64,000 bases of DNA from Bryoerythrophyllum caledonicum (Eukaryota > Streptophyta > Bryopsida > Pottiales > Pottiaceae). Position 1 is the first letter of the stretch, and each line of letters begins with the position of its first letter. The DNA lies in NCBI GenBank assembly GCA_963971425.1, contig OZ020518.1:11476190-11540189 (forward strand), read 5' to 3'. Shown in pieces: positions 31,501 to 52,362 of this stretch. The notes below the pieces were generated by a model that was given only the letters and a program-made list of their open reading frames with translations, did no database searches and was not told the origin of the DNA. The position numbers were made by a program, and so were the translations under genes.

Positions 31501-31609
31501 AAAACTCCGTATTGAGCTTACCTTTGAGCCAGGCCAACTTAGCCAAAAGGCTAGCCAAGATGATCAAGTCATCCACATACATGAGGACTATCAATAGGTA
31601 CTCACCCGT
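31501..31609 (-). pseudogene. Ty1/copia reverse transcriptase, downstream fragment with YVDD
   Basis: Minus-strand translation gives the catalytic YVDDLIIL motif of copia reverse transcriptase followed by WLKGKLNTEF, then stops matching copia at 31501, where the dispersed repeat starts. The upstream end stops at the 9-bp CTCACCCGT that also borders the reverse transcriptase fragment at 52363. The two pieces join in phase, so this is the other half of the element at 52354-55358, separated by a 20.7-kb insertion. RNase H and the 3' LTR are missing. Confidence 0.85.
31601..31609. repeat. 9-bp target-site duplication, left copy (CTCACCCGT)
   Basis: Identical to 52354-52362. Removing one copy and everything between restores the copia reading frame. 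Confidence 0.92.
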
Positions 31610-31651
31610 TGGAGGTGTCTTATATGTGAGAAGTGAGCGGTGAGCAGAAAA
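31610..31651 (+). repeat. left terminal inverted repeat of the MULE
   Basis: After 13 loosely matching terminal bases, TATGTGAG..G.GAGCGGTGAGCAGAAAA is shared with the reverse complement of the right end, with three mismatches over about 28 bp. Confidence 0.8.
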
Positions 31652-32239
31652 TTGTGTCGTAGAGAGCAGAAAATATTCGAATATTCTCTTAATAATCTAA
31701 TAATAGTGGAATATTCTATGAATATGGCGAAGTTATTTTTAGAGGGGTTTATTTTTCGTCCAAATGTATTTTTGGGACCTAAGACCGTGGAATTATTTTT
31801 TCTAAATTTATAAAGTTTCCAGTACTTCTTCCCCTTTATGTCTTAAATGCAAATTTTGGAAGGCATATCTGACTACTTTTTTAAAATTTGAAAACTCACA
31901 ATGATTTTCTTAGTCTCTCAAAATAGTGGTTTTGGTTATAGATAACCACGTCGGTGATGTACCCTCTCGTTTCCGAGAGGGTACATCACATCAATTCCAT
32001 AAAAACTAGTACTTTGTAGAACGCAAAGGGTAAAAATGAGCAACTATACTCTCGAACACCGCAAGGATATATTTCTAATAATAGGTATAATGCTTTGTCG
32101 GGAGACAATATAATGGTAACGATTATAGATATTCCTCATTTAAAATTATTTCAGTATAGTCTCTGAAAATGACAATCAAGTACCCTCTCGGAAACAAGAG
32201 GGTGCGCATTACAAAAATAATAGAAGTAGGTATTCTATT
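31652..32239. other. left subterminal region of the MULE
   Basis: Noncoding. Holds GAATATTC-type motifs at 31671-31730, a strong hairpin (31955-31988) and a weaker related one at 32187-32210 (ACCCTCTCG...AGAGGGT). These may be transposase-binding or transcription-end sequences; function is unknown. Confidence 0.5.
31955..31988. repeat. perfect hairpin TGATGTACCCTCTCG/CGAGAGGGTACATCA
   Basis: 15-bp perfect arms around a 4-base TTTC loop. The arm core GTACCCTCTCG is the same as in the intronic arrays at 39.3, 42.9 and 48.8 kb. It lies about 250 bp beyond the 3' end of the transposase gene. Confidence 0.85.
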
Positions 32240-35200
32240 CTAAACTCCAGAATGTGCCAGAATGCCACTTTCAAGGACTAGTTTCACCTCGTTGAAGCTG
32301 AAAGAGGGTGCATGAATGAAGAAGTGGACGTCGGGTTGAAGTTTACAAATCTTCAAGAATATGAAGTACAGATGCTTGCAATATGTGAACGGACTCCGTC
32401 CACGAAATTCGTTCATGGTCTTTGTAAAGGCTGGACATGTACAGTGGGGAAACGCGCTCGTCGTGATCGTATATGATGTCTTATGAGGGGGGCTATATGA
32501 GTTTAGTGTGATGATGCACCCAAAGCCAGGCTGAGGAACCATGCGCACCGAAGTAATTGATGCAGTGAGGAGTTCGGCTGATCCCATTGATCGTCTTTGA
32601 TTCGTATTGGGCTTGGCAGAAGAGCGCTTCAAATTCTTCCCACTCCTTTTTGCAGGATACTTGTCAGGATGGTCAGGGACGGAAACGGAGTTGAGGTCCA
32701 ATGGTAGACTACTTGTTGAGAAGAGGCACCTCGGGGATATTTGTTCCTTCTGAGGGAGTTGAAATCCGGCTAGTTGTAAGTCCACAATCTCCCCGCAAGT
32801 GAGATTTGTGCCAATTATAACAGGCCGAACTTCTGGGATAGGAGGCTTTTCCCCGCACACCCATGGACGTCTTAGACCATTGATACAACGGTCGATATCA
32901 TCGTTGCAGAAGTAGAAGTCAGTGTCTTCATAGGTGCTCTTTGCTCTATATTCGAATTTATCAATGTAGGTAGGAGCAAGAGTTGGCTTTCCTCGTCTCA
33001 CAATCTTCTCCGTGCATTTCTTTCTAACTCCCCCACATTGCGCCCAACATTTCTTAGCTGAGTTCGCCGGCACACGAGCAATATGCTACTGGGTTAGATT
33101 GGCATGGGTCTCTTGAATTGCCGTTACAGGGCGAATTCCAGCCCTATACACTAGAGACGCAGCCGGGATTGGATGCGGCGGTTGTGATGGTGAAACCTTG
33201 TCATGGAAAACACCATCATCTTTGTCAATAATGGGCAATGGAATTGACGATGACCGAAGTCGTCTAGAGGAGTACCGGGGATGGGAATAGTTTACCCTAT
33301 CGGGACGATGTGATTCGTCATCGGCTTCAAGAGGTAAATTCGCTTTGCGCTTGTGTGTGCCAAACACCTCCGCGGCTTGCATATAAGAATTACGCGTGCA
33401 GAATTCATTTGCCCCCGACATATCCATCATAGAATCTCCTAGAACGCGTGGATCGCCCGTCTTTTGGCAAAGCTTGCTTCCATTTGTTGTGGATGGATTC
33501 ACCAAGATTACAAGAAGGCATTTCCGCGAGTTCATCTTCAGACATGCTCTGTATAGAAACAAACACGTTTATTAGGGAAACTATAAATGAAAGCACCGAA
33601 ATTGTATATAAATAATGAAGAAATAAGTCATGAAACCACCCCATTGTCGATAACGGAAGTGCCAGAATGCCAACCATAGATCAAGGTGTTGAAATCCGCT
33701 TTCTGAGACTGCTCCCGACGAAGCCCACCATGCACGAATAGATTGGTATAATCTATCAGCCTCTTCCATTGTACTTGCCTTCCTGAACTGGTGGCACAAT
33801 GCCTTGTGTTGCTCTCGTAAAGGTCCTTCCATAATGAACTTGTCAGAATGCTTCACCATTGATTGTGCCCAGTGGAATTGGCACGTGCGGTCTTTATCGA
33901 CCATCACTTCGTCCTTGTTGCCGCTACCATAAATAATCCGAACAACATTCCAATTAGTTTGGGCACTGTCTGCCATGAAACCTTTGAATTGAGGTGACGA
34001 AAGTCCATGTCGAGCCATTACAGCGTTGGGATTTTTCCAGAATAACATCTGCGCTGCCGCATCTTCCGAGTGCATATCACAGCATGCAATGCTCATGACA
34101 CGACAATAGGTGGCGTCATACACATGGCATGCCATAGTTGTCCACTGCTTCACACGTTTAACATGATCAAACATCAACCATGCGTGTTCGAGGTCACTGT
34201 CTTTTTGCACACGCTTCACCAAATCCACGCCAGAACCCGGTTCAACTTCGGACATCTTGAAGACAAATACCTTTTCTGAATCATCACCTTGTCCTAAAAA
34301 CATATTCTAATGAACTAATGCCCAATTGCTAAGTCCCCGTAACCTCGTGATGTTGTCTAATACGCCATACTTGTTAAGGTATCGGAATGAGACCACTTTG
34401 TTACGAATACTTGGAGATCCCAGGTCCTTGCACTTATCTAACATTGGAACTAACTCCTCAAAACTAAGTTGTCTCTTTGGATCGTCCTCTTCGCGCAGCA
34501 AGAACTCTCCCATGAGGTCCTTACTCGCCTCTAAAACTATTGAACTTTTAGTAGCAAGAGGGGTTCTTTGAATTTGATCACTAATTAAGGAGTTGATACA
34601 CTCCTTGACATCTCGATAATCCCCTACTCTTACGGGATGGTTGTGTGACCCTAGATGAATACAAGCACGTGTGATATTGTGCTTGCTCGAAACATAATAA
34701 ACTATAGCAGGGCATAGTGCAAGACATGAGGGAGGCATGCGACATATTTTGCAGACCAATGTCGAGCCCAGGGGAGGTACCTGTCCTGGAGTGAATGGAT
34801 GCCGCGTAACTCCTTCGAATTCTGTAACATTAAATGGTGCCGTTCGATGGTCTCTTCGAAGGGATTCACAATCAGAATTGTCCCATCGTAGGTGCCCGAC
34901 ACACTTGGAAGTCCGAAAATGTAGTCCGTCGTCATTGATGATATTCGTTGTGATAGTCTTCATCCACACGTGCCCATCGTATCTCTTGTCCATACCATGC
35001 ATGAACTTTGCTTGAGTAGATGACGCCGACAGTTGCGCAGGAGGAAGCTCAAAAATGACATCGCCATTAAATTGGTGGGGAAGATAGTCCACTTTCACAT
35101 GGCGCATTCTATCGTAATTTAGAAGTTTCAAGGGATTCTTACAACCTGGACGTTGACGCAGCTGTCTCAAGCACGATAGAACACTAAGTACAGATGAGCC

Positions 35201-35794
35201 CATTGAACGATCAGGAGGGCATGACAGTGGTGTACAAGATGTAGGAGGATACGATGTCGGTGTGGTAGTCCTAGGTGGGCACGACATAGGAGTGGTAACT
35301 GGAAGGAGACAAGACGATGGGGTAGAAAACTTTGGTTGACAACTTGTCTAAGAGGGGGACTCATCATCCGAGGACAAGATCACTACGCTCTCCGTACCAG
35401 GTTCAACCTTGACTCTAACTCCAGCTGGGAGTGGAGTGTGCATGCTGCATGACGATGATCTATGAGGAGTATGGACATGGGTTGGGGTAGAGAATGCAAA
35501 ATCTAAAAGTCCATGTACCCGATACTGTCCTGGGGGAAGTTTCTACACTCTCTCCGATCCCACGTCCACAACGTGCTGCATAGCGATAGTATGAGTGAGC
35601 TCCGAGGTTGCCTTGTTGTAGACTTCTTCCTCAATGTAGATACTGTCCTACAAGAAAGAGAATCTGAGACTCAATAACGAGGAAGTCACCAATGCAACGC
35701 CGTCACTATCTAAACGACAAGTAAGTGGCACGTCTACGCCACAGGCACGAAGAAAAACAAGTGAAGACACTGGAGCCTGGGAAGAAGAAGCCAT
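32240..35794 (-). pseudogene. MULE transposase with SWIM zinc finger
   Basis: From ATG 35794 (MASSSQAPVSSLVFLRACG) the frame runs leftwards. A 42-nt GT...AG segment (35648-35689) with an in-frame TAG may be a tiny intron. A Pro/Ser-rich linker follows, then a DNA-binding-like N-terminal region (FNGDVIFELP ... KHNITRACIHLGSHNHPV). The transposase core has MACHVYDATYCRVMSIACC, KGFMADSAQTNWNVVR and a TCQFHW block (34300-33640). The C-terminal part ends with the SWIM finger (HCTCPAFT ... YCKH; CxC...CxH, about 32380-32440) and TAG at 32240. In-frame TAGs at 35543, 35348, 34307 and 33086 and a frameshift near 33455 disable it. The exon junction around 33550-33640 is unclear. Order of domains and SWIM finger fit MULE transposases, which cut and paste DNA between inverted repeats and leave 9-bp duplications, as seen here. 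Confidence 0.72.
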
Positions 35795-36326
35795 GATAAA
35801 GGAATGAGAGGATGTGAGTGTGTGTGATGCAAGAAAAATTGGTTGGCTCAAATACTCACCTTGACAGTGTTGTGACAAGATTAAACTAATTAAAAGAGTT
35901 TCTAGAGAACGGCGCACGCATAAAATTAGGGAGAACTTCAAATACAATTTTGGAGAATAGTCATTCTAATGCAATGGAATTAGTAGACGGCGTGATATAT
36001 ATATAGAGTTTAGCAACGAGGCATAGGCAAATACTGCACGATTCGAATTGTTTAATAGAAGTGGGTGGTGAAAGTTGTGTGGAAGTGTCAGATAATTTGA
36101 CCACAGATTAGAGTCCTTACAAAGAAGGCCGCCATCTTGATGTAAATTTGACTAAAACTAGTGTATAGAGCGTTGTGCCTTTAAAAGCGGCTAGGTCGTA
36201 TTGGGCGCATGATATCTACACCCGAGGCGAGTAGAAAGGCAGTAAATCGCGTTCCAAGAGTTTGGAAGTCTACACTATCAAGCTGACGCTAGGAATGAGT
36301 TGTAGAGGAAAGTCCATTTAGATGAG
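35795..36326. promoter_or_regulatory. divergent intergenic region between transposase and cargo gene
   Basis: A TATATATATAGAG stretch (35996-36008), readable as a TATA box in both directions, lies about 200 bp upstream of the transposase start and 320 bp upstream of the next plus-strand frame. A shared bidirectional promoter is plausible but unproven. Confidence 0.3.
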
Positions 36327-36560
36327 ATGCCAAAGAGAAAGAAACGGGTGGCCCAATTCTCTACCTCGAAACAACTGAAGGCGTCAGAGGAGTCGCGAAT
36401 GCGGAGGTACGCTGGCTTAGAGGGTACAGCTAGAATATTAGGTCCGGAGTTTGCGAAGCTGGACGTAGTGACAACGTCGAGGCGGAGAGGGAAAGCAGCG
36501 GCTGATAAGGAGCAGGAGGTTCAAGTTTCGATGGACAATGCGCGTGTTTCAGAAATGCAG
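36327..36560 (+). CDS. basic first exon of unknown gene (78 codons)
   Basis: ATG 36327 opens MPKRKKRVAQFSTSKQ ... MDNARVSEMQ and ends in a good donor (CAG|GTACGC at 36561), in phase 0. The start is rich in Lys and Arg (KRKKR), compatible with nuclear import. A second small candidate exon (37264-37311, MPRSSVIEGAP...SMQ) ends with a similar donor. Either could be an alternative first exon of the ParB-methyltransferase gene, but I found no acceptor in the right phase before 37421. Confidence 0.35.
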
Positions 36561-37420
36561 GTACGCGCTTGTTTTGTAGCGAGGGAGTGATTGAAAATGC
36601 ATCTTCTGAGAGGGTCATACGTGTCCCGTAAGTTCGTTTTTGAAAAGCTATAATTTGAGACGATGCATTTGATAGAGGGTGACTTAATTAAAATGCAAAG
36701 AGTCCTCTTGATGAGGGAGGGGATTAGACTTTGACGGCTTTAGTAGAGGATAATTATGATGTATGATGGACTACAATGTCGATGCGATTGGTGATGAGTA
36801 ATATGATGTTAAGGTGAGGACGGTGGTAAAGTATGATTGAGGACAAGTTAGGTAGTGGCCGAAAATGATGTTGAAGTGGAAAGTTATGTCGATTGCTTGA
36901 CTTCTAAGCGAAGTCGAAATGATGAATTTAGACATAATGGAGACGTACTCTCTAGTGACGGCTTAAGTCACGGCCGATGCTGACGGCTCTCTCATGGTAC
37001 GTCTAATTAGAAGCCTTAAGAAATGACGGTTGTGTGAGATGGTTTGTGAAATTAATTATTGGGTTGTTGATGGAAGGGTTGTGGTCATAATGAGTTGAAT
37101 TAGACGACTTGGGTAGTGGCGGAGGTTGACGGCTCATCCCAACCATAGTTATAAGTAGAGCGACTTCTAATGTATATCTTCTTTCATTTGTGCAACCTTG
37201 GAGGTCTTAGGTTTTCTAGTCGATAGTATTGGTTAGCAAGTTCCAGCGTTCTAGTGCAGAGCGATGCCGAGAAGTTCTGTGATAGAGGGGGCGCCGGAGC
37301 GTTCTATGCAGGTAATTGTAGACAAGGTTAGGAGAGACGGAATGATTAGGGTTTGGTGGGAACTGCGAATGAAGGAATTGTGAGGTGTTTCGGAGAGAAC
37401 TCTTGTGAAGAGGGTACGAT
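36561..37420. other. spacer or intron between candidate first exon and cargo gene
   Basis: Noncoding apart from the candidate exon at 37264-37311. The text is rich in GACGGCT and GAGGTGACGG-like words. It could be an intron. Confidence 0.35.
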
Positions 37421-39274
37421 ATGTTGCTAACATCAGAATTTGTGGAATCGCAAGTGGATGAAGAAGAAGCTCCCGGCGATCCGATATTAAGCACGACAAG
37501 TGGCTGCAAGATGGTGCAAGTCGGTGGAGAGGACGCGCGTAAAGTTGGTGTGGAAGTCTCACACGAAGGTGGAGGAGAGGGTTTGGCGATGGCCATGCTC
37601 GATGCTGAAGAAGTCCGAGACAGAGGCGGCAAAGACGAGGCGGGACCTGGAGGCGGTAACCAAGTCGAGAAGGATGCTTTACTAATGTTGACCGAGAGTG
37701 GAGGTGAAGATGAGCAAGAGCCCGACAAGGGACGTGATGATTTAGAAAAAGGCGACGAAGAGGAGAACGACGAAGATGACGATCTCGATAGGATAGACGA
37801 GGAGGCGGAGAGCGAGGAGAAAGTAGGAAGTGAAGCAGAGGCGGATAGCAATGCAGCCGCTGCCGGCGAGGCCCTTGTCGACCTGGGTATATCCGACTCA
37901 AGCAAGGACATCGATGCCGGGAGAGGGTCAAGGAAGAAGGGCAAACGCAAGAGCAAGAAGAGGGAGAAGAAGGAGGCAACGCTAGACCTTGACGACCTCG
38001 GCCACGATCCGGATGCCTCTATAGAGCTAGTAACGGAGCGAATTGGTATGGTGTACCACCCTGATGCATTTGCGGCGATCAACCTAATGCGGCGACTCCC
38101 GATGGGTAAATTCTCACATATTCGAATTCCATTGTGCCGCATGATTCCAATGCAGGAGCTTCAAAAAGTGCACAAAATCGAGAAGCAGAAGATGATGGCA
38201 GGGTTTGCTCATGGTTATCGAGATGGTGACATTTCTTTCTACCTTGCGGTGACTGGCAAGGAAGGAATTGAGCGGCTTGTTGATGACGCGGTTTCGAATT
38301 CCTAGTCCTCAAATTGGTAACCTTGAACGAAGAATTCGAGTCCGAGTTGGCTGACGACGAAGACCTGAAGCATCTGAGTGGGAAGATGTTGTTCATCTAC
38401 GATGGCAACCACCGGTACGAGGCGTGGAAAGAGTACATCGACACGAAGAAAGATGGTGACACAGAATTTGTTAAGAAGAACGGGAGGCCGTTTTGCATTA
38501 TACTTGACAATACACCAAATGGGTATCCACAAATACTATCAGCGATGCACGCCGTCAACAAGTAAGTATCTTTTTAAAGTTGCAAGGTTTGCAAGCTTAT
38601 TAGGTTTTTCTGGTAATGACCGCTGTTCTGTTAGGGCAAACGAGACAAACCATGTCGTTACGAATGTCATGCACCAACTGGACCGGGTGCATTTATATGG
38701 CACTTGGCCACTAGAGTACTACAAGGACTTGATTCCGCCCCATCGCTATGAAATGTGCGTGAAGAAGCCAAGCACTACGTGGTACCCGATTCCCGCTTCT
38801 CAGATGGTGAAAGTGCCATTCCAGGTATTTCTCGTTCTTTACATTCTTACATCTTACAAATTTTAATTAGAATCTCATTCTTGGTTACGGCGTTCTTGCA
38901 GGACGAGTTACATGAAACCGCAGTGAAAGAGCGACTCGCGTATCTAGCAGAGACTCTAGAGGACGAACAGACTGGACGAGGTATGCAAGAATATATGGAA
39001 GGCCAGATCCGTTTGAAGCGTGATAAGGTGACAAAGAGGTTTGGCAAGCTTGCTGGAGTGGCAAACCCAGCTAACGGAGAAAGCTTTCTTGACGAGGTAA
39101 CCATACAAACAACCGTTAATCATTATTTTTGAATGTAATTTTGAATCAAATTAGTTTAAAATTAATTCTTATTATTTACAACAAACTAGGACCCATAGTA
39201 CATTATTAGGCTTTCAATTAGACTACTAGGCTTTATCTGAAACAAATTCCAAGTTTAGTTAACTGCAAGGACCA

Positions 39275-39610
39275 CCCCGTGGAACCTCTACTTCGATCCT
39301 ATGAGGGTACCCGGGCGACTCCGGATACCCTCTCGGAATCGGAGGAGGACTCCTCCGGTTGGTCCCCCCTCGGTTCCGAAAGGGTACCTGGCGTCGCCTG
39401 GGTACTACCGGGAGTACCCTCTCGTTACGAGAGGCTACTCCTGGTGGTACCAGGGCGTCACTGGATACCCTCTTAGGATCGACTGAATGACTTAGTATAG
39501 TATCACCTAGTTCCGAGAGGGTACCTGGCGTCACCCGGATACTACTGGGAGTACCCTCTTGTAACGAGAGGGTACTTTTCGTGGGAATCGGGTGACGCCG
39601 GGTACACTTT
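39275..39610. repeat. intronic palindrome array, left part
   Basis: Two palindromic units centred near 39426 and 39563 with the core ACCCTCTCGTTACGAGAGG, flanked by complementary GTACTACCGGGAG/CTCCTGGTGGTAC arms. A further palindromic centre GGAGGACTCC lies near 39350. The same array resumes at 42915 after the inserted element. Confidence 0.8.
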
Positions 39611-39739
39611 CGGCATTTGACGTTGTCGTGTAGTAAATTACTACACTATGTAAAAAGATAATATAGATACAAAAAGTGTCGTCGTAGAGTGACCTACAGT
39701 TTAATTCAATGTGGGAACATTTGGGGCTTGTTAGCCTAG

Positions 39740-39950
39740 CTTGGATGTACTGCATCTCTTGTCTCTAGCTCAGGGGTAGATAGGTGGCCAGTTGGCTGCT
39801 TATTTTCCTGCTCTCACTAGCAAGTGCCAAGCCGCAGCCGCACGAACAATTCGACGAGTTCAATGAGACTCGAACTCGGAATCAGTCGGCGGTTAACAAA
39901 CGGGTTCTAATAGCCAACCAAGTCTGCAACTTGGCGATTATCATTGAGCC
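39740..39950 (-). repeat. tRNA-like / SINE-like segment inside copy 2
   Basis: Same segment as in copy 1. Its tail here reads CCCTGAGCTAGAGACAAGAG on the minus strand, even closer to the tail of the segment in copy 4. Confidence 0.45.
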
Positions 39951-40224
39951 CGCAATAGTCTTATACTGCTACAGATAAGTCGTTTGTTTCTTAATCTGAC
40001 TTTACTGTGGACCATCTTTTAGATAGAAAGGCATCTATGGCTACTTAAATTTGCTTAGCCGTTTATTATTAAAGAAATGTCATTGAGTTAATGTTAGGGA
40101 AGGCAAGCTTCTTGATGAAGTTATCGAAAAACATATAAAGGGTAGATGGTTGCCGTGCCTAATGCATTACTTCAGGTCATTATTAGTTTGGATTGTTTCT
40201 TCTTAATTTCTATAGGTTGATAGT

Positions 40225-40656
40225 ATGGCTTCTCAAGACCCTGATGATTGGGAGTTTCCTTTAGCTCACTCACCGGATGATCTAATTCAACTTTCTCAAC
40301 CATCGACATCAAGGCGGCGTGAGCGAGAGGAAGCAGGGCCTTCTGAGCGTCGTGTTCAACCACGTACCGCTTTTGATCATCAACAAGTTCCTTTGACAAG
40401 TTTAAGAAGTTTACAACCGGAGGCAAGAACTTTAGTAATCGTCTTGGAGGTTGGAGATGTGCTTATCGAAGGCCATCAAGTGGTGTTTGAAGGGTGTTTT
40501 CAAAACACTAACGAAGGTCAAATGGTAACCCGCTTGTCCAATGACCTTGGTCACCGTCTTTGGCTTCAAGGCCCGCTCAGACACTTGGGTAGTGAAAGGC
40601 GAGCAAGTTACATCGCTGTTGTTCTTCGTGAGATTCTTGACTTTTCACATGTTTAA
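40225..40656 (+). CDS. 143-residue protein of the TGTCGTG element, copy 2
   Basis: Identical in protein sequence to the frame at 10410-10841, intact from ATG to TAA. Two intact identical copies at unlinked insertion sites, plus a diverged third, make a random ORF unlikely. Upstream, TTTCTATAG before GTTGATAGTATGG could be a leader-intron acceptor. Function unknown. Confidence 0.62.
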   Translation: MASQDPDDWEFPLAHSPDDLIQLSQPSTSRRREREEAGPSERRVQPRTAFDHQQVPLTSLRSLQPEARTLVIVLEVGDVLIEGHQVVFEGCFQNTNEGQMVTRLSNDLGHRLWLQGPLRHLGSERRASYIAVVLREILDFSHV

Positions 40657-41253
40657 CCCATCTAGGGGCTGAAGTTGAGATAATTTATTGTTATTTCTTT
40701 TTATTTATTTGTAGTTAGTTGTTGTTGAAGAAACCCGGTCTTTAGATTGATGACCAAGCAGTTAGTGTTTGAAAATACAAATAATAGAAGGGATAGAGGG
40801 ATGATAAGAGTTGATAAGGGGGAGAATTTGAGCAACCAATGGGGTTTTAGATGCCCATGTGGCCTTTGAATGGGCTGAGGTTAGTTGTGATTGGCTCCTT
40901 TCCCCGTTTTGGGGGTTGGGTTCTTCCTTACAAAGGAGGGGCTAGACTGCGGAGGCTCTCTCTGGTTGTGTTTGTTTTAGTTTGATTTGGATTTGGACGA
41001 TGTTGTAGCCCTTGTTGTTAGCTCTCTATGAAGCTATCACTTAGTCTTGGAGCTGAAAGTATGAGTGAACGGCGCCTTGTTGAACACAAGGGGGTCTGTT
41101 ACCCCATGTTTTCATGAGCAGTAGATTTAAAGCCTTGTAGCAAGTTGTACAAAGTATATCTAAATGACATCTTTGGTGAGTGTTTGTACACTGTAAATAG
41201 CTTTCCAAGGAGCTATCTTATGCTCTATTTCGAGCTTTTATGAAGTCATAGCA

Positions 41254-42046
41254 GGGTGGAAGCAAGCTAGGGTGGAGCACTTAGTACGTCACGAGCAGTT
41301 TTTTCAAGGGGTCCCAAACTTCAATGGCCGGATTAGTAGTGCTCCCAATGCAAAAGTACTAATGTTTTTGGCAATGATGTTAGCACTACTAATGAATATT
41401 ATAAAACTATTGTGCTTTACTCCAAAAAACATTGGAAACACATAAATATATGTACTTTTTTAACTTTCAGAAAGTACGTCACAGTCTGGATAAAAACAAC
41501 AAAAATACGAATATCATGTTGTTTGACAGAAGATAGTACAAATTCACACTTAGATAATGGAAGAACATGTTTAAAGCCTTCAAATGCACATTAAATGTTG
41601 TGATAATTTTTAGTCGCTCATTGTGATTTTTACGGTCAAAGTGCTAAAATTATTTTTGGGCAAAATATACTCAAAAATGATCCAAACTTCGTTTTTTTTT
41701 CAGTATCTAGTCGATTTAAGGGGATCCCCATGTGGGTAGCAAACTGATTTTCAAGTAATATGAGTGAAAGGTGGTAAATTGAAACACCTTCCACTCCCGC
41801 AAAGGTACAAATATAGTACAAATTAAACCTCTTAAACACCTTCAAAAACTACAACTGGCGCGACTTTCGAGGCTCCTAAAGCCGCGCGTGTCACACCACC
41901 TGCCACGCTTTAGGAATGCTAAAAATATTCATGTTTATACTCAATGTACATAGGGCAAATTGGATCTCAAAGAAGGGTTGACTTTTACCACTTTTTTGGT
42001 ACAATAGGTTGTCCGAAAGTGCACCCACCTTAGTGTGCTTCTACCC
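41254..42046. mobile_element. 793-bp non-autonomous DNA transposon nested in copy 2
   Basis: The uninterrupted sequence is present in copy 1 at about 11428-11440, so the empty site is known. The insert has imperfect inverted ends (GGGTGGAAGCAAGCTAGGGT and, reversed, GGGTAGAAGCACACTAAGGT; about 28 bp) and a 4-bp duplication AGCA (41250-41253, 42047-42050). No coding capacity. The superfamily is not clear from these features. Confidence 0.85.
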
Positions 42047-42914
42047 AGCACTAGTTTGAAAGAAGAGGGGTCAGCTGACTTGAGTTTTTGTAAGAAGTAA
42101 CTTTGATTGCACATAGCGGCTGGACAAATGAGTTTCTCTAAGTGAAATTTGGTGTGTATGTGGAGTATTTTAGTGGCTTTTCAAGTAGCTATAGCACGGC
42201 TCATTCCGAGTTTGTATGAAACCGTAGTGGTATTTTGAACTAGAAGGTTAATTAAGAGTTTAAAAGAGAGTTTGAGTTCGGTTTATACTTAATGAGAAGT
42301 TAGAGAAATGATTTCAAAGGAAGTAAGGGTATATAAGAGAAGGGTATGAAGTGGTTAGGGTATGTAAGGGTAAAGGTATATGGGATTGTGGTTAATTAGG
42401 GAATTAATTATCTTAATCAAGGTTAATTGTGTTAAATAAGATTAATTAGTCTAATTGTAATTAATTAGCTTAACTAAGATTAAGTGGATTAATTAAGGTT
42501 AATCATATTATTTAAATATAATTATCTTAACTATTAATTAATTATTATTAAGTGAAATTAGTTAATTTAATCAGAGTTTAATTAAAGCTTGATTTAGATT
42601 AAGGATAATTAATGTTTTGAGTTAAGTTTTTGGGAGACAAGTTCTACAAGACATCTACATTATGTCTTATTATATGTGCATCGAGTTTTATTATACAAGT
42701 TGAAGATCGGAGGCCTTTCTCGTATGCTGAATGAGGACTTATGAGTTAATATGGACTTGGACACAAAATTATATGTTCCATAATCTCCATTTCCCTCTCT
42801 AAACTAAGTGCAGCCAAGAACCCTGCGTTTTCCTGAAGCAAAGACTCTCTACACGACAACGTGACAATTTCACGTCGTCCTTGCTCTAATTTTAGTGGGT
42901 CTCTATCGTCTACA

Positions 42915-43405
42915 GGGTACCATCCAACATACCCTCTCGTTACGAGAGGGTATGCTGAGTGGTACTAGGGCTACTCCCGGTACCCTCTCTGAATTGAGAG
43001 AGGTCCACCTGTTCGAGTCTCCTCCTGATCCTTAGAGGGTACCCGGTGCCGCCCGGATACCACCGGGAGTACCCTCTCGTTACGAAAGGGTATTCTCGGT
43101 GGTACTTGGGCGACACCGGGTACCCTTTTGGGATCGGTGGAGGACTCGACCAGGTGGACCCCCCTCGCATTTGAGAGGGTGTTTGGTGTCGCCCGGGTAC
43201 AACTGATAGTACCCTCTCGTTACGAGAGGGTACTTTTGGTGTTACTCGGTCGACGCCGGGTACCAGCACGGGATCGTGAGAGGACCATTCGGACGAGTCC
43301 CCTCCCGATTTCGAGGAGGTACCCGACGTGGTCTGGGTACCACCCAGCATACCCTCTCGTTACGAGAGGGTATGCTGTGTGGTACCCAGACCACGCCAGG
43401 TACTA
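42915..43405. repeat. intronic palindrome array, 140-bp period
   Basis: The core CTCGTTACGA(G/A) starts at 42936, 43076, 43216 and 43356, exactly 140 bp apart. Each sits in longer complementary arms of type GGTACCACC...GGGAGTACCCTCTCG / CGAGAGGGTACT...GGTGGTACC. The first and last units use GCATACCC/GGGTATGC arms and the middle ones AGTACCC/GGGTACT, so arm changes appear to be matched on both sides. Confidence 0.88.
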
Positions 43406-46271
43406 CCATAGTGCCTAGAGAACATCTTAATCGTGTTGTCTAGGTGCGAGTATTAGCTGCTTGTGACGGCGGAAAATTTACTTCTCTTAATATGACTTGA
43501 ATTTTTTTCTTTGAATATGTCACACCACTAAAGAGAAACACAAGGCGGTACTAATTTTGTGTTCATTTGAATAACGAAACAGGTTCAAAAGAACTACGAC
43601 CGGCATAACTTAGACCGAGTGGAAATGGGGCTTGAGAAGCTTCAGCTCGTGGCCACAACAGTTGTTCCCTCCAAGTATAAGGTCATGTGGCTGATGATGT
43701 GGAACGAGTCGCACTTTTGGCGAAAACATAATCACTTTCCCGAGTATCCTTGCTTTCAAGCGGACCTTAAGAAGTTCCTGGCACGAGCGGTCTTCTATGC
43801 GTGGGTACGTCTAGTTTCTGCTCCTGTAAATCTTCTTGTATTCTCATGTATTCATCACGCATTCTTATTCATCTATTACAGCTTCAAGAGGATCTCGGGC
43901 CAAAGATGGATGATCTCCTAGGCAATCTGGAGCTAAACCCCCATCCGAGAGAGGAGCCACTATCCTGGATGGAGTACTTGGCGATGTGGAAGCTCTGCTT
44001 GTAGGACCATGCGTACAACAGCCACTTTCTGGCAGAGTCTCCATTCACTCGACTATCGAAATGGGAGGACGTCAAGGATCGCGGAGATATAGCAACCCGG
44101 TTTGCCTACCGATATATCAAGCATGAGCTCCTTGAAAAAGGTGCAATATCCTCTCTACCACTCTGGATGCACACGGCGTACTCAACGTCGTCCACCTCTT
44201 GCATGTACTCTCCGTATCAATTGTTGTTGTTTCCGTTGGATCATCGCAAGGACTGCCACTGGTATGTTGAATGTCACAAGAAGTACTGTCATAAGGAGGA
44301 GCTATTCATGAAGGAGGGGCACGGTCCTCTATATGACATCAAGGAGGACGTCCCGGAGAAGGCTGACACAGCGAAGGAGAAGAAGAAGCGCTCGAAGCCA
44401 ATGAGCCCAAACACAAGACGTCTGCAAGCCAACAAGAAGGCGAAGGAGCGACGTGCTAAGATGAGGAAGGCAAAAGGCAAGTCTACTGCGGACGAGGACT
44501 TGGAAGAGGAGGATGATCTTCAGGTAATAGAGGAATCAAGATTTCCCGAGTCCTCCGTCCGGGAACATGGAGTTGCTAGCGTTGCTCTAGGCGTCTCGAC
44601 ACCAGCTTGCGTCACTCTGTCGGATGATAGGCCTATGGAGGTTGAAGTATCATTACAGAAGGAGATCTCCGTACGACCTAGGACGGAGCCAACACCAGCG
44701 GAGGATTCAGATGCTGCTCCATTAATTTTTCGACGTGTGCAGCCTCTCCGATCTCTCAAGTCACCCGCTGGTAATCCTATAGTGTCCGTTACGCACTCCT
44801 ACTCCACATCCACGAGGGTGCCGCTCGACGATCCGACCCCGAGTCTCAACATCACCCCCTCGAGTCACACAAACCCTGGTGGCATAGATCCAACGTCGAC
44901 ACAACTTATCATGAACGAGTCAATGTCACGTGATGTTTGGAACGAGATCTCAGACTTTGTCATAGATTGCAATGACGGGAAGACTTGCCTACTGCGAGGG
45001 AATGTTGTTCAGAAGGGGCAAAGGATGGACCTCGTCCTTGCTCAAGTACCGGACAATCTTCCCGTGCCCGATGTGTCGGTACTTCCAGATGAAGTCCCCG
45101 GATGGAACATGCTTTCGATAGGCTGGATGAAGATGCTCTTTGGTTTTGCCAACGTCTTCTTGCATGACGATGGCGGTCTGTTTTTAACATATTCTGATGA
45201 TAAAGACAAGACGATGCAGATCTTTAAGGCGCACTTCATGGGATTCCGATTCAAGATCATGAAGGAGTGGGTCAGTGTGAATAGACTGCCTGAAAGATCC
45301 ACTACTGCGACTTCTGGGACCACCAACTTGTTCAAGGTTGTGCTTCTTGTGCGTGCTAATTCTCTTCAAGGTCTAGTTAAAGCGTACCGCAAATCAAACT
45401 TCCGATTTCGAAAGCATCCGGCGCTTGAAGAGCTCTCATTGGATATTTCTGGGACTGATGCCATCTTTAATTTTGTTAGTAAGGAGACACTCACTCGGAC
45501 TGGTGATCGGGTGTGGCGTGGAGCGAAGGAACGTGGTCTACACTTCTACACATCGTTGATTCTATCCGCATCAGACAAAGAGGATGTCGTAGTTGACATT
45601 ATCGCTGCTACAAGTGCGCCTACAAATTCCCTCGTATTTTTTTTAATATTTTTTCCCACTTGTGTTTACTATGTCTGATATTTTTTCAGGAAACTCTATT
45701 CGAGTCTGCAAGGATCACGGTCGTCACATCGTTGCGATGGAGGCCGATGCGGAGGTATTTGAGGTTGTTCCAAAGCCTCTCACGGTCCAAGTCCCCGCGA
45801 TGCGCATCGAAGACCACATGGATGTATATGACGACGACTCTGACCAATTGACCCTACCTTCCGACATTCCAAGTGTCATTCCAGATGTTGCCGACATGGA
45901 CTTGGAGCCCCCCCCAAAGCGTGCCAAACAATCGAAGCCGTAAGTAGGTGAAATTCAATGGTACCTTCACCAAAAACGTTTTTGATGTCATAATTTTCTT
46001 CTTTATCTCGACATCGATTTACATAGACTCTCTTTTTGACTGCAGACATCATTTCTCCGTATCTCAAAGTCCCGAATGTTTTTTTTTCTTGCCCGTATAC
46101 GCGCGTGATATGGCCAATGCACTAGCGGCTTCCAATTCACCACCTGCTTCTCGTCATAGGAGGCTGCATTTTGATCCAGCAGTTTATAATTTTCTAGACA
46201 TTCAGGCTGAGGAAGATAATGACTTTGACACTCTCTACGGTTCAGATAAATGCTCTGCAAGCGAATCTTAG

Positions 46272-47764
46272 CGTCGTGGTTATTAAAAGCATACTAGCAT
46301 TGCATTATTAAAAGATTTCTTTATATTTTTGGGAGATTGCATCACTCTTTATTCTTGGACTATGCATAGTCTATATTTGCTTAATTATGGCATCAAAACA
46401 CTTGTGCTTCAAGGAGGTGTTCAAAATCACACAAAGAACACTCAAATTTTTTGCTATCTTACTTTCTTTTAAAAATTCCATTGGAAATGGTGAACATAAG
46501 GATTATCATTATTGCTCTAGGTAGGATGAATGAATAAACAAAAAACGCAAAAAAAAGTAAAAAATATTTACTCTAATTTAGGTGGAAGAATGGCAGGTTT
46601 GGTGTGTCCTTGGGTCGGGTGCATGTTGTGATTGCATATTCTATATTTAATTCAGTGTCCTGTCGACGTGGATGCTTATTCGAGGTTTTGGGTGGATTCA
46701 TGATTCCTTGTTTGTAGACCCACACTACATATACATCTTCATGATAATTTTGAAATCAACCAAGTTGAATATAAAAGACGATGTAATTGATCAACCCTAA
46801 CTTGATATCCAAGAACTTAAGCCCGAAGACTCCTAAATGCTCAACCCTTAATGTGTATCAACCCTCTAGAACCATGTTGCACCAATGACATCACTACTAG
46901 AAGTCCGAGAATATGTAATTGGCCGTTTGCTTCTTTGATTAGTTGTAGGTGGGAAATTTATAACTAAACAAAGAGGCAAAACCAATGCTCCACAAGTAAA
47001 GTTTTGGAAACGGGCACAATTATTACTATTGTTGTAAGATATTAATTGTTGTAATTCTTCTAATTAACCACTTATATTTCTGATTCATCTGCCAACATCA
47101 AATGTCATCATGGGAGACCGCCAAGGTGGTTGATGACATGGATTTGAGTTTACATGGAATTTGATTAGAAAGAGATAGCATTTTGTACGAAAGTGCTGCT
47201 AGAAAGGTTGTAGGATTGTTTGATTATCGGGCGCGACTAGTCTACTGGCCGATGTGGCTCTGCTTTAAAGATTTAGGTGACACTGTACCATCGATTTAAT
47301 GTTTTAGGCCGTTGTCAATCTCCTGACACTCAAGTCATGGCTTATAATTAAGCCCGACCATATCCATTTAATTCAGCATTATTTGTACCTCTCTACCTCG
47401 CGGCCAAAGTCCCTACTTATGACCGGCTTGATTATCATTTGACGCCCCATGATTGTGTACAACCGCGATGGAATTTTTCGTGCACGCGGCATTTGCCACG
47501 ACACACTTAAAGGAACTCAAATGATTCATGAACAACGGTGATGGGATGTCTCAAGCTCGCGGCCATTGCCCTCACACGTTAGTACAATCATGATTATGTT
47601 TTCAAGCACGCTGTCACTCTTGCTTTTGAGGGGATGTTTTAGTGAGAAATTTTGAGAGCTTAGATTAATTATGACAAGTCTAGCATGTCGGTGTGTATAT
47701 ATTGAAAGATCGGAATGGCTAATTCATCTTACATTTTGCGAGGGGTTTTGAGTTGTGAGTGAAG
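46272..47764. promoter_or_regulatory. spacer with TATA box for the acidic-protein gene
   Basis: Mostly noncoding. TATATATT at 47696-47703 lies about 60 bp before the ATG at 47765, a fitting place for a core promoter. The rest shows nothing recognisable. Confidence 0.4.
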
Positions 47765-48238
47765 ATGGTTGAGACTCGCCATATGGCTCGTGTTCGTAGG
47801 GAGAGAGAGGCTTTAGATTTGCAGCTTCTAGCCAAGGATTTTAGCGATGAGGGAAGTGTCAAGGAGGGAGGGGACAACATTTCCACAACCAACGTTGAAG
47901 TAGTGTGTGATGGACCCCGTTGTCACAAGGATTTGATGGCTCCCGGATATGACTGCACCGACATGTTTGACATTTTTAATGAGGAGGGTGTAGATTACTT
48001 CGGCTACTGCCGTGAGTATTCCGACGACAATGTTGTCGGTGGCAGTGTATTGCGCGAAGAGGAGGACCACTGGCGATCGGAAATGGATGTGGTGGAGTCT
48101 TCCGACCAGGCGTTTAGCGATGGCAATGCGAACCTTGAAGAGGACCTGCTTGGATTTGAGTCGGATCAAGTGGAGTCATCTGACGATGGGCGAGCCTATA
48201 TGTATGGTGGTTGTGATACCGGCTCCGATGTACTCTGA
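47765..48238 (+). CDS. small acidic protein of the MULE, unknown function
   Basis: An intact frame of 157 codons, MVETRHMARVRREREALDL to ...GCDTGSDVL and TGA. The first 20 residues are basic and helical; the rest is strongly acidic with many Asp, Glu and Ser (EEGVDYFGYCREYSDD, SDQAFSDGNANLEEDLLGF) and a CDGPRCHKD motif. No domain is recognised. The TATA box upstream, the intact frame and the position between the two larger cargo genes suggest an expressed gene. An acidic regulator or chromatin-binding tail is one possibility, not shown. Confidence 0.5.
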   Translation: MVETRHMARVRREREALDLQLLAKDFSDEGSVKEGGDNISTTNVEVVCDGPRCHKDLMAPGYDCTDMFDIFNEEGVDYFGYCREYSDDNVVGGSVLREEEDHWRSEMDVVESSDQAFSDGNANLEEDLLGFESDQVESSDDGRAYMYGGCDTGSDVL

Positions 48239-48673
48239 TATGTACGCGCCGTCTTTCTTGAAGAACCGCTAGACAGTTTCCAGATTTTAGCAAAGATGTT
48301 CATAGTTGCCTTCCAGACCTATAACCTTGTTTCATATATGGCATTGTGAAATCTTATCGTTCTTTGCTACTTGATGATTTCTCTAATTTTCAGTTGCACT
48401 TGAGATCATGATGGTGCAACTAATTTAATGCCCTGGACTCACCATTTAAAGTCATGAGTTGATAGTTTAATGCCCGCGGACTCACCTTTCAAAGGCTTGC
48501 TGGATCAATCACTTGTTCACCTTGTTTCGCGGAGAGGTATGTTTGTCGCCAGTTTGTGGAGAGGAATATTTGCCGCTTTCAAAGTCATGTGTTGATGTGC
48601 CGCAAGTTCTTGTCTTCTATCGGTTGTGGCGGTGGTCACTTCTTTTCGTTTGTTGGTGAAGCTCTCGGATAAC
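48239..48673. other. intergenic spacer
   Basis: Contains two related phrases, TTTAATGCCC.GGACTCACC at about 48424 and 48467, a short duplication. No gene. Confidence 0.4.
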
Positions 48674-48819
48674 ATGCCTTCTACGGCCATGGAGGCTCTC
48701 GCAAACCGAGGTGAGTTTCGGTAGCTTTCCTTTATGGTCTTGAAATTCTTGATCTTTGTTGTATTCTTGTTTGCCGTTGTTTTTTTTTGTTTTGTTTTTT
48801 GAATTGCGGCTCCGTCTTC

Positions 48820-49500
48820 GGAGTTGCATCCAGGGCGCTTGCCGTGGAGCTTCAAGGAGTACCCTCTCGTTTCTGAGAGGGTACACTTTGGAGCTCCAGG
48901 GCTCGTGCTCCGAAAGCAACTCCGTTAATGGAGTTGCATCCAAGGCATGGCTTTTCCTGAATGCAACTCCGTTGATGGAGTTGCTATCAGAGCAACTCCG
49001 TTGATGGAGTTTGCCAGCTAGCTTTACCGAGCTTGCATATGAGTTCCGAGAGGGAACTCATGGATGCTCCAGGGCAAGCCCCCGAATGCCACTCCATGGA
49101 GTTGCATTCAGGGCATGGCTTGCCCTGAATACAACTCCATTGACGGAGTGGCATTCCGAGCGCTTTCGCTGGAACTCGTGGAAGCTCCAGAGCGAACGCC
49201 CCTAATGCCACTCCTTGGAGTTGCATTCAGAGCGAGCCATGCCCTGAATGCAACTCCAGAATCGAGAGTTGCTTTCTGATTGTTCGCATTTGAGGTCACA
49301 TGAGTACCCTCTCGTTTCCGAGAGGGAACTCATGAAAGCTCCAGGCCAAGGGCCTAGAAAAATTTAGTCCATGGATTTGCATTCAAGGCAAGCCATGCCC
49401 TGAATGTCACTACATTGATAGAGTTTTTGTCACCAAGCCATGGCTCTTGCGCTGGAGCTACAGTGAGTACCCTCTCGGAAACCAGAGGGTACACCGTCAT
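48820..49500. repeat. dense nested-palindrome array in an intron
   Basis: Repeated inverted motifs include GCAACTCCGTTGATGGAGTTGC, CATTCAGGGCATGGCTTGCC, CTTGGAGTTGCATTCAG and GTACCCTCTCGTTTC.GAGAGGG (48860, 49303), with a variant at 49466. Units alternate between a GGAGTTGCAT-type hairpin and the GTACCCTCTCG hairpin. No single fixed period; translations in all frames are by-products. Confidence 0.8.
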
Positions 49501-49732
49501 TCATTGCAAGGACACTTTTTATGCCAACAGGACTTTATACCCACAGTTTTTGTTTAGTTAATACTTGTTTTGAGCTCTCAAGTTGCTGAATAGTTTCTAA
49601 TTTGTTTGTTTCTCAGACCCTCACGCAGATTCCAAGTTGAATGCCTTGTTGATCCCGGGCTTGGTGGACGATGTTGTCTTGGGATGTATTTGGCCACAGA
49701 TTGCTAGGTCAGTGCACTTGATCAACCACCGT

Positions 49733-51283
49733 TGTCGTGAAGGAAATCAGTAGATGTTGTAAAAGGATTAAAAAAGAAGGAAAAGAGAATGGTTAGGGCC
49801 GAAGGTGAAGACATGACTAGCGGATTCATCCTCAATTACGCAGTCATACTTCACCAAACATCATCTATATCTTAGAGGATCTTTTACTGCCTCTTGTCAC
49901 TAGCTCAGGGCTTAGGAGCGTCCACCAGCTCGATTTCCTGCTAATTTCAGCAATCCCCTGACCACGCGTGCGCTAGCCGCTCTGACAAGCCAAGGAATTG
50001 AACCTGGACCGGCGAGGTGCTACGAAATGCTTAGTCAGCCGAACTGAGCCGCGGTCGATGACAGTACGTGGGCTCTAATGGTATTTAAGCCATTTTCTAA
50101 ACGCTTCTAAGATCAAAAACCTAAACAGAGTGTTATGATACTTTAGTTTGTAATAAAAGTAAGAAATGCTAGTGTTTAGAGTCAAGTTAGAGGGAAGAAA
50201 ATAAGGGCAGCTACTTGTTGACATTGTAGATAAGAGATAAGAGGGAATCTAGGCTTACGTGGGAAATTACGGACAAGAATTCGAGGTAAATTGACTTAGG
50301 TGACCAAACTTTGGTAAAAGAAGGAGGCTTGAAGACGTGGGCTGATGTTAATTCTTGACTTTCTTGTCCTTCTCCCCCGCTCAAGCTCTTCTCCCCAAGA
50401 CTACAAATAGCCTCAGGTTTCTGCTTGTTTCATCGCGAGTTTTTAGAATTTGATTGTAAGTTTTAAGAGTGTTGTTTCTCTTGGTGTTAGCTTTCTAGTG
50501 ATGTATCACACGCTCCAATCGGAGTTGTAGTAAAGCCGTGGTGCGGATTTAAATAAAGAGGGGTTTAGAAATTGAGGCAGTAATGTATAAATACTTTGAA
50601 GGAATGGTGTTCCGCGATCATTGTGAGTTTGATAGTGAGATTTTGAGGGTAGTATTACAATTGTCTTAGGAACTTATGTTAAAATCTTGGATTCATTAGG
50701 ACTATAATCTAAAAGTTATGAGGTAAATTGTAACCGGGGTTTTGAGAGGGATTCAAGGGCAGAACTTGGTATAAGAAAACTACGCTTTGGGAGATTATTG
50801 ATAGAGTCTTTAGGATTGATTTTTTTGTGGAAGTGTTCTTTGTTATATAAGTGACTTATGTACAAATTTTGAGATGTTTGTCTGTAATAGAATAGGAGTG
50901 ATGAAGAGTTGAAGTAGGGGGACCTGATATTAGAGGCAGAGGAGTTTGAGGCGATGGATCTTATTGAAAATTGATCCAGTAATAGTGAAAATTGGTACAT
51001 AGCTTTTTAACAAGATTATAAAGGTTGTGTCAAAATCCTAAAGTCATTGGATTTGTAGATAGAAAATTATGTGAAAATTAGTGGTGGGATTTTTAGGGGC
51101 AACGTTTGAAGATGGGAACCCCTAGATTAAGAATGTTATGGAGATAGACTAGAAGCAAAAGAAAGGCATAGTAGCCACTTTTTATGTTTGTTGAAGCCAT
51201 ACGTACAAGATAAGTCTTGCACTTAACTACCTAAATGCAAAAAAGACCCTGTGTTTCCTAAAACAAAGCTTCTCAACACGACA
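49733..51283 (+). mobile_element. TGTCGTG-family element, copy 4 (1551 bp)
   Basis: Starts TGTCGTGAAGG and ends CAACACGACA, with a perfect 4-bp duplication CCGT (49729-49732, 51284-51287). It interrupts exon 2 of the two-exon cargo gene. It has the tRNA-like segment about 150 bp from the left end and a 3' region with phrasing like the other copies (CCCTGTGTTTCCT, compare CCCTGCGTTTTCCT), but no recognisable 143-codon ORF, so it is an internally deleted or diverged member. Confidence 0.82.
49890..50057 (-). repeat. tRNA-derived (SINE-like) segment with A and B boxes
   Basis: On the minus strand, GGCTCAGTTCGG (A box, 50050-50039) and GGTTCAATTCC (B box, 50004-49994) have tRNA-like spacing, within a roughly 75-nt tRNA-like block (50057-49983). 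A tail follows to CCCTGAGCTAGTGACAAGAG. The tail is shared with the segments in copies 1 and 2. A tRNA-derived SINE is the simplest reading. Confidence 0.6.
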
Positions 51284-51350
51284 CCGTACTCTTGATTCTG
51301 GAATCCGTGATGTTGTTAATTTCGTTTACTCCATTCGCGAGCAGGGTTGT

Positions 51351-52060
51351 TCCGGCGTCCGTCCGTCCGGTAGTGTCCGTCCGTTCAGCTGTCTGTCCAG
51401 TAGAGAATATTCTAGAATATTTGGAGAATATTCGGGTATATTCGGGAATATTCACATATATTTTGGACATATTCTTTGGAATATTCTAGTCATATGTCCG
51501 GTAAGGGTGATGTCCGACTGTCTGATTGTCCGATTGTCTGTCCGTCCGCTGTCTTTGGGCCCCTGTCCGTCTATGTAGACAATCTTGTTCGCCAGCTCAG
51601 TGCTCGATGGTGGTCACTTGTTGAGGGTTCATTGGAGGTCAGTGCGGTTAGAGCTTCGCTTCACATGGCTCTGGTTTATGGTGGCCGTGGACATGGCCCT
51701 GGACCTCGACACATTTGGATTCCTCACTTTCGGCGGAGTTTTAATCGCAATCTTCTATTCCTCGGAGCGCGGACGGTTATTTCATTGCCATTTGATGTAG
51801 CGCTGCTTCGACCGGTGCGGACGCTATTGGAATTTCAGCTTCACCAATTGATCGTCATGTTACGGAGGGCTGTTCGTCGCAACCAATGGAACGGCCAGTC
51901 GCCAGTTTTATTTGGCAGCACAAATGTATAGCAACGACTAATGCGATCGGACATTGATGTTGACTACTAGTCTTAGTACCGAGTTAGAGTGAAGTGTGAC
52001 ATTGCATTTTTGTGTACTGGTTTCAGAACTTCATATTGTTTTTATGATCTTCTTTATTTT
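51351..52060. other. right part of the MULE, coding status unclear
   Basis: A plus-strand frame at 51476-51931 (LARWWSLVEGSLEV-like; VRTLLEFQLHQLIVMLRRA) has some protein-like composition but no recognisable domain and could be a last exon of the cargo gene. GTCCGTCCG repeats flank the GAATATTC cluster at 51345-51395 and 51530-51570. Confidence 0.3.
51405..51486. promoter_or_regulatory. GAATATTC cluster, heat-shock-element-like
   Basis: GAATATTC at 51405 is followed at 10-bp phasing by GAATATTT (51415), then further GAATATTC and TATATTC motifs to 51486. GAAnnTTCnnGAA is the consensus bound by heat-shock factors. Similar GAATATTC motifs lie at the opposite end (31671-31730). Functional assignment is inference; the motifs could instead be transposase-binding sites. 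Confidence 0.4.
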
Positions 52061-52190
52061 CGTTAACAATGACGTCAGCACATATTTTTTGCATTCAGTT
52101 CTTTCGATAATAGTTCACGATGACGTCAGCACATATTTTTTGCATTCAGTTCTTTCGATAATAGTTCACGATGACGTCAGCCCTAATTTC
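52061..52190. repeat. 51-bp tandem repeat with TGACGTCA motifs
   Basis: TGACGTCA at 52070, 52121 and 52172 gives a constant 51-bp period, with ACATATTTTTTGCATTCAG and TTCTTTCGATAATAGTTCACG between. TGACGTCA is a palindromic bZIP (TGA/CREB-type) site. The array ends about 160 bp from the right end of the MULE. Confidence 0.85.
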
Positions 52191-52311
52191 TATAAATTAC
52201 CCAAAGAACTAAATTTTTGGCCTATGTAAAGAATTCTTCTAAAAAAGGACCACGGTAATAGGGCCCCTTTAATGCAATTTGTGCACATGAAATGTTTGAT
52301 TCTGCGGTCTC

Positions 52312-52353
52312 TTTTTCTGCTCACCGCTCTCCGCTCACATACGAGCTTTTCCC
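52312..52353 (-). repeat. right terminal inverted repeat of the MULE
   Basis: Reverse complement reads GGGAAAAGCTCGTATGTGAG then CGGAGAGCGGTGAGCAGAAA, matching the left end. The outermost 12 bp are weakly conserved. Confidence 0.8.
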
Positions 52354-52362
52354 CTCACCCGT
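52354..52362. repeat. 9-bp target-site duplication, right copy (CTCACCCGT)
   Basis: Same nine bases as 31601-31609, bordering the upstream half of the copia reverse transcriptase. Confidence 0.92.

Follow-up and report, generated by a model that had tools for sequence, protein, structure and literature searches.

Probable defective copy of a giant DNA transposon family with a ParB-methyltransferase-like gene in the moss Bryoerythrophyllum caledonicum

In a 64,000-bp stretch of the genome of the moss Bryoerythrophyllum caledonicum (GenBank assembly GCA_963971425.1, contig OZ020518.1, positions 11,476,190 to 11,540,189; hereafter the window), the reverse transcriptase of a copia element is split by more than 20 kb of other sequence. 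This raises the question of what kind of element was inserted there, and whether the genes that it carries besides a transposase are passengers or working parts. We consider it quite likely that the insert is a now-defective copy of a ~16-kb cut-and-paste DNA transposon family of this moss, which entered an old copia element through a 10-bp staggered cut and in which a ParB-methyltransferase gene serves as an accessory factor. The element has boundaries, target duplications and other copies in the genome, its gene order recurs in diverged relatives, and its ParB, methyltransferase and DDE portions are under codon constraint.

The insertion and its target comprise the following features, given with their coordinates in the window.

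31601..31610, no strand: left 10-bp target-site duplication, CTCACCCGTT
31611..52353, no strand: transposon copy of 20,743 bp, with boundaries common to other genomic copies
31611..31652, plus strand: left terminal inverted repeat, imperfect, with GTGAGCG-type heptamers
52312..52353, minus strand: right terminal inverted repeat
52354..52363, no strand: right 10-bp target-site duplication, CTCACCCGTT
52364..55373, minus strand: the longer part of the target copia, with open frames that run from gag through to reverse transcriptase; its continuation is to the left of 31601

The sequence CTCACCCGT occurs at exactly two sites on the plus strand of the window, 31601-31609 and 52354-52362, and nowhere on the other strand. 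The original prediction had taken these nine bases as the target duplication around an insert of 20,744 bp. The two sites stand, and the duplication is one base longer and the element one base shorter, at 20,743 bp: because a T lies directly 3' of both CTCACCCGT copies and other copies start one base further in, the duplication is the 10 bp CTCACCCGTT. Of the 20 other paired copies, 19 have the sequence that aligns to window 31611 (GGAGGTGTC or a close variant) starting immediately inside their duplication or target site. As predicted, this is a single precise insertion in the copia reverse transcriptase, with the frame in phase once the insert is removed; when the flanks are joined, the frame is open over the junction (..YI*LTGEYLLIVLMYVDDLI..), with one stop just upstream that lies within copia itself. 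The ends had also been correctly described as inverted repeats. The imperfect repeats extend for ~42 bp and match best over 29 bp, at 90%; their end-to-end inverted alignment scores 43, compared with 22-34 in 17 random window pairs.

The genome searched for copies consisted of 437 Mb in 894 contigs, from one assembly. The left 500 bp and the right 403 bp were used as queries, and the pairing of ends on the same strand and the 9-bp duplications were judged by eye. Left-end matches longer than 200 bp and of at least 87% identity numbered 27, including the window (one, on contig C8, covers only query positions 234-493), and the right end gave 41 matches among those listed. Left and right ends were paired at 21 loci, 17 of which have a target duplication that differs by site: 12 pairs have an exact 10-bp duplication, three have 8-9 of 10 positions matching and two have an exact 9-bp duplication, while three have none (among them a full-length copy, C4b) and one is without its left end. 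In mispaired controls (n = 420), one reached 8 of 10 and all others 6 or fewer. Segmental duplication was ruled out as the source of the copies, as every site with a duplication has its own. Four other full-length copies of 16,149, 16,204, 16,313 and 17,238 bp contain the same genes; in the genome-wide test that had been proposed for refutation, the two ends do co-occur. Two of the pairs mark extremes of size. At C4:29533785-29680624 a distance of 147 kb separates the ends, which are flanked by an exact 10-bp duplication, AGTCTTGAAC, and have ParB and methyltransferase exons in between; this is probably one element enlarged by nested insertions. At C6:6504341-6506071 the copy measures 1.7 kb, retains both ends and is exactly duplicated at its target, and is a non-autonomous deletion derivative.

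The element had been described as a giant of 20.7 kb. Giant it is, with the qualification that full-length copies are otherwise 16.1-17.2 kb and that the surplus is nested sequence: the window copy is longer than its relatives because of two additions.

39624..42858, no strand: nested insertion of ~3.2 kb, absent from other aligned full-length copies, with a relative at window 9806-12250
49732..51587, no strand: extra ~1.86 kb, where three of the four full-length copies have ~47 bp; its left edge bears GTTGTCGTG

The bases GTTGTCGTG form the ends of the nested repeat at 39624-42858, and the same bases are present at the left edge of the extra stretch, at ~49732.

What, then, moves this element and what else does it encode? 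Four gene features are recognized between its ends.

32240..35794, minus strand: transposase gene, broken, with the DDE part at 33584-34306 and the SWIM part at 32243-33085; start codon placed by comparison
36327..39096, plus strand: 5' exons encoding an acidic region and a ParB-like domain, with DGNHR within 38287-38562 and a splice donor after 39096; first exon inferred
43583..46268, plus strand: 3' exons encoding a linker, a methyltransferase-like domain (44908-45612) and a C-terminal tail; motif I and the S-adenosylmethionine (SAM) part follow an intron, from 45690
47759..48238, plus strand: small acidic open frame of 159 amino acids (aa), family-specific

The predicted SWIM-finger transposase is present, its CxC..CxH motif lying in a minus-strand frame and recognized by pattern only, and the frame is broken in the window copy. 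Its 1241 codons are interrupted by 8 in-frame stops, of which 3 fall in the likely intron, and ~155 bp of other copies are missing at 33467/33470. An intact transposase is found in a diverged relative, R4, where it is open over 1268 aa (L068:2172-5975, minus strand); it is equalled in score and length at a second locus. The order of its parts is a zinc-binding-looking region ending in HxGxHxHP, D (CHVYD), D (FMADS), CxxH, E (NLxES) and the SWIM pattern, which we take by their patterns to be the zinc site, D..D..CxxH..E and SWIM motifs. A 241-aa piece of the transposase gave at least 150 scored matches from 2345 candidates, all those listed having at least 62% identity.

The ParB-methyltransferase gene is multi-exon and is transcribed away from the transposase. 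In the relative R3 a single open frame runs from the last part of the first block into the beginning of the second, precisely where the others have their matching gt..ag intron. Because R3 reads through where the others have an intron, we conclude that the exons at 36.3-39.1 kb and 43.6-46.3 kb are to be read as one predicted gene. The window intron between the two blocks contains a minisatellite and the nested insertion. The ParB-like domain has the DGNHR motif and, in some of the scanned sequences only, a weak resemblance to ParB, DUF1015 and DndB.

This arrangement is not peculiar to one family. The order transposase (minus), ParB (plus), methyltransferase (plus) is found in five of five diverged relatives, R1 to R5, whose pieces have 25-90% protein identity to the window. 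R1 to R3 were selected by their ParB matches and R4 also had such a match, such that R5 alone, taken from the transposase list, is a blind test. R5 is a complete element of 14,371 bp with its own 10-bp duplication, GGTGACGGCT, and similar GTGAGCG-bearing ends; its transposase piece scores equally at 10 listed loci, R5 included, and R1 and R5 represent families with many near-identical copies. Among the 90 used of the 150 listed ParB matches, a divergent transposase match lies within 15 kb upstream in 40 (median 4.0 kb), compared with a mean of 0.2 and a maximum of 2 in shifted controls, and another arrangement is seen in 2 of the 90. Many ParB matches are unpaired, which is expected because only the best 150 transposase matches were compared. 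For the methyltransferase, 76 of the 80 listed matches were used (four second pieces were dropped, and locus C8 is counted twice), and 61 have a ParB exon within 15 kb upstream, against a control mean of 0.1.

Selective constraint was estimated as the ratio of nonsynonymous to synonymous substitution rates (dN/dS). Among six to seven family copies, compared in pairs that are not independent, the median was 0.19 for the ParB exon, 0.31 for the methyltransferase and 0.28 for the DDE part, versus 0.70-1.17 in shifted frames, and the linker, at 0.39, is clearly below its shifted frames. Compared with R4, dN/dS was 0.07-0.17 for the DDE part, and the N- and C-terminal parts of the transposase are constrained as well (0.19-0.30). 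R4 (L068 and L069, C14:8998400-9014500) has a transposase half that is 88% identical in DNA to that of the window family over 4.2 kb, with ParB-methyltransferase pieces at 40-56% protein identity. Since one half is shared and the other is not, comparison of the two loci suggests that halves may have been exchanged between families; the alternative is faster evolution of one half.

To which superfamily does the transposase belong? The element had been called Mutator-like, and the assignment is partly supported: duplication length, short inverted ends, the SWIM pattern and the D..D..CxxH..E motifs fit, and a Pfam match to Mutator-like elements (MULEs) is lacking. The duplications, 10 bp in 15 copies, 9 bp in two and 10 bp in R5, are within the MULE range of 8-11 bp. 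The alternative is that the transposase lies outside Mutator and represents another superfamily, either KDZ-like or without a name so far, whose duplications are long too, a possibility that we put somewhat short of even. In its favor, a Pfam scan of the window transposase pieces and the intact 1268-aa relative gave no family at E ≤ 1, and no SWIM family match. Ordinary MULEs are present in the same genome, with at least 150 PF10551 matches at E ≤ 0.01, and none of the 150 listed, compared by eye, is at a transposase locus. Comparison with five local MULE proteins was not significant either by profile (hhalign E = 0.12 and 0.024, probability 0.5% and 2%) or pairwise, where in 3 of 20 tests 6 or fewer of 300 shuffles reached the score. 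Working against a separate superfamily, the order of zinc site, D..D..CxxH..E and SWIM looks MULE-like, and hhalign placed the D..CxxH segment of the transposase on that of MULEs. No KDZ (PF18758) match was obtained in the genome by a search whose control gave none either, and Zisupton duplications are 8 bp according to an excerpt of PMC12730594. Other searches gave little: the AlphaFold model of the transposase is poor (pLDDT 41), a PDB profile search with the transposase returned nothing relevant, its N part was unmatched in phage collections, and for neither the linker-methyltransferase frame nor the DDE-SWIM part did a close-relative scan of viral_contigs confirm a relative. The phage and viral collections yielded one 47-residue match, in a faecal phage.

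A second question is whether the accessory protein modifies DNA. The second block is predicted to encode a permuted, beta-class DNA methyltransferase-like domain. PF01555 matched the spliced R4, R1 and R5 forms at E = 1e-5, 1e-5 and 5e-5, which is 0.7-3 bits below the curated cut-off (the exon junction guessed for R5 is outside the matched part), and a profile of the domain, in which R3 and R5 were entered as separate exon pieces with their motif IV residues as read, found the adenine methylases CcrM (E = 7e-9) and DpnA (E = 2e-6) as its best PDB matches. These matches, together with the conservation of the motif I or SAM-binding region and of a GRH segment, would suit an enzyme still active in N6-adenine or N4-cytosine methylation, which the ParB-like domain would guide to the DNA of its own element so as to mark it. 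The catalytic motif IV of such enzymes is defined as D/N/S-P-P-Y/F/W. At the DPPY site the six aligned sequences read EVPD, EIPD, DIPE, DFPD, NVPE and QVPD, that is [EDNQ][VIF]P[DE] in six of six, including R1 and R5 with their families of many near-identical copies. Because DPPY is replaced in all six and the SAM-binding region is kept, we think, to judge from these residues, that binding is a more likely mode of action for the protein than ordinary N-methylation of adenine or cytosine. An active enzyme therefore appears unlikely to us, even though a self-DNA-marking role has been proposed for algal ParB-methyltransferase proteins (PMC12477816, in excerpt).

The original prediction had counted three non-transposase genes and regarded them as cargo. 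Extra genes do exist; we read the three as a single gene with several exons plus a small one. The latter, the 159-aa frame, gave 44 matches from 50 candidates, all of at least 66% identity except one (46%), and no match in the R1 to R5 stretches searched, of which that of R4 ends short of the right end; its dN/dS is 0.37, versus 0.54 and 0.91 in shifted frames. Its family-specific appearance would agree with an ordinary MULE in which host genes were captured as passive cargo, as would 9-10-bp duplications, the SWIM motif and the gene fragments borne by Pack-MULEs (PMC6431247, in excerpt). We nevertheless hold such capture to be very improbable. The ParB-methyltransferase gene is a full multi-exon gene and no fragment; it has the same place and orientation in relatives with matching pieces at 25-61% protein identity, its conserved parts are constrained, and its exons recur beside transposases. 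The main extra gene is thus better described as conserved in diverged relatives than as captured cargo. That two copia copies were misjoined around unrelated sequence in the single assembly examined is extremely unlikely, given that the same two ends are paired at 20 other loci, 16 of them with their own duplication, and that the similar full element R5 has its own as well.

A final feature of the element is a set of short palindromes.

31963..31980, no strand: first of 14 palindromes of the form CCTCTCG-n-CGAGAGG (2 or fewer mismatches)

All 14 palindromes of the window are inside the element (31963, 32184, 39366-39571, 42933-43369 and 48863-49488), and five shuffles of the element gave 0, 0, 0, 0 and 1. 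They number 16-24 in four other copies and 22 in R4. A 140-bp minisatellite is built on this palindrome in the ParB-methyltransferase intron (42894-43416 and 39306-39616), and in R4 palindromes lie ~129 bp apart at the same place in the intron. Outside the element, the window contains a GGGACGG-type minisatellite at 1004-1402 and a 141-bp triple repeat at 352-774, and an open frame at 60684-62330 matches the Pfam ferric reductase FAD- and NAD-binding domains.

Several observations weigh against the reading of the insert as a transposon with its own accessory factor. No duplication is found in 3 of the 21 paired copies, the left end is gone in 1, and 6 of the 27 left ends are left unpaired. For the ParB part, DUF1015 was matched at E = 0.005-0.006 in two of the four DGNHR-bearing sequences scanned, DndB at 0.18 and a phage ParB family at 0.16 in one of five, with no NCBIfam match and no relevant PDB match; neither it nor the transposase has a firm match in Pfam, NCBIfam or PHROGs, the last scanned with the ParB part only. 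Among family copies, no clear frame-specific constraint is seen in the transposase N part (0.54, versus 0.45 and 0.84 in shifted frames) or C part (0.57, versus 0.61 and 0.61), nor clear constraint in the acidic part of the ParB exon (0.57, versus 0.55 and 0.87). Lastly, palindromes number 0-1 in the R1, R2, R3 and R5 stretches (R2 and R3 being partial), so they are no general ParB site. Their occurrence follows that of the shared transposase half and not that of ParB, which weakly favors their being putative transposase binding sites.

With these points weighed, we retain the reading of a cut-and-paste family with an accessory gene and hypothesize that it works as follows. The SWIM transposase would bind the terminal repeats, possibly the palindromes too, and move the element by cut-and-paste with a 10-bp stagger. 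The divergently transcribed ParB-methyltransferase would be the element's accessory factor; in all likelihood it would bind DNA sequence-specifically and recognize its own element, and it may keep the element expressed or shield it from silencing, or may help transposition. As a more tentative proposal, to which we give rather less than an even chance, such elements could be giant DNA transposons of land plants that form a lineage of their own, possibly of superfamily rank, marked by a divergently oriented pair of genes: one for a long SWIM transposase, the other for a ParB-methyltransferase-like protein that no longer methylates and serves as a self-recognizing factor for anti-silencing or transposition, the halves having been exchanged between families.

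How does the moss element compare with known systems? MULEs have duplications of 8-11 bp, inverted ends that may be short or long, a SWIM finger in many groups and sometimes extra genes or minisatellites, according to an excerpt of PMC6446971, in the main text of which moss, Physcomitrella and methyltransferase have 0 occurrences. The moss element resembles them in duplication length, inverted ends, SWIM motif and extra genes, and differs in having no Pfam MULE match and a size of ~14-17 kb. The self-regulation of VANDAL elements is mentioned in an excerpt of PMC12730594. In VANDAL/VANC anti-silencing, a transposon-encoded accessory protein is thought to protect its own element, which serves here as a working analogy drawn without sequence comparison. 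We know of no ParB or methylase domain in that system. Lanisha (Repbase 2020) is described in an excerpt of PMC12730594 as a cut-and-paste element with an EnSpm-like transposase, of a clade (CMCT) with 2-5-bp duplications. Both it and the moss element are cut-and-paste, but its transposase is EnSpm-like and its duplications are shorter. Identity with Lanisha or CMCT was ruled out by duplication length, 9-10 bp versus 2-5 bp. The authors of Lanisha are reportedly moss workers.

In algae and fungi, giant cut-and-paste elements with epigenetic-looking accessory genes are already known. An excerpt of PMC12477816, among the references of which are Iyer et al. 2011 and Petroll et al. 2025, places ParB-methyltransferase genes within giant transposons of algae, whether brown, green or red; in it, Sola1-1_Ec32 of Ectocarpus is a 21.5-kb transposon with a ParB-like and N4C/N6A methyltransferase gene on the strand opposite the transposase. 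As far as that excerpt describes them, these algal elements are, like the moss element, giant DNA transposons with a ParB and methyltransferase gene opposite the transposase. The likeness is one of description, with no sequence comparison, and the moss element differs from Sola1-1_Ec32 in its SWIM-motif transposase and 9-10-bp duplications, and perhaps in its degenerate motif IV. Sola target duplications are 4 bp. Among the titles and abstract openings listed by a literature search, which reached few subscription journals, none describes the moss family. The proposal of an undescribed class of giant element is only partly right, since ParB-methyltransferase giant transposons have been published for algae. 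The kind is thus known; as far as the literature searched shows, novelty lies in the families of this moss, in the combination of a SWIM-motif transposase and 10-bp duplications, and in the degeneracy of motif IV. The degenerate catalytic motif sharpens the question of whether the methyltransferase domain modifies DNA or belongs to a binder that protects the element. In contrast to the algal cases, several diverged families are present in one moss genome, some near-identical across chromosomes, which would extend the kind to land plants, where the expression, DNA methylation and transposition of such elements are testable.

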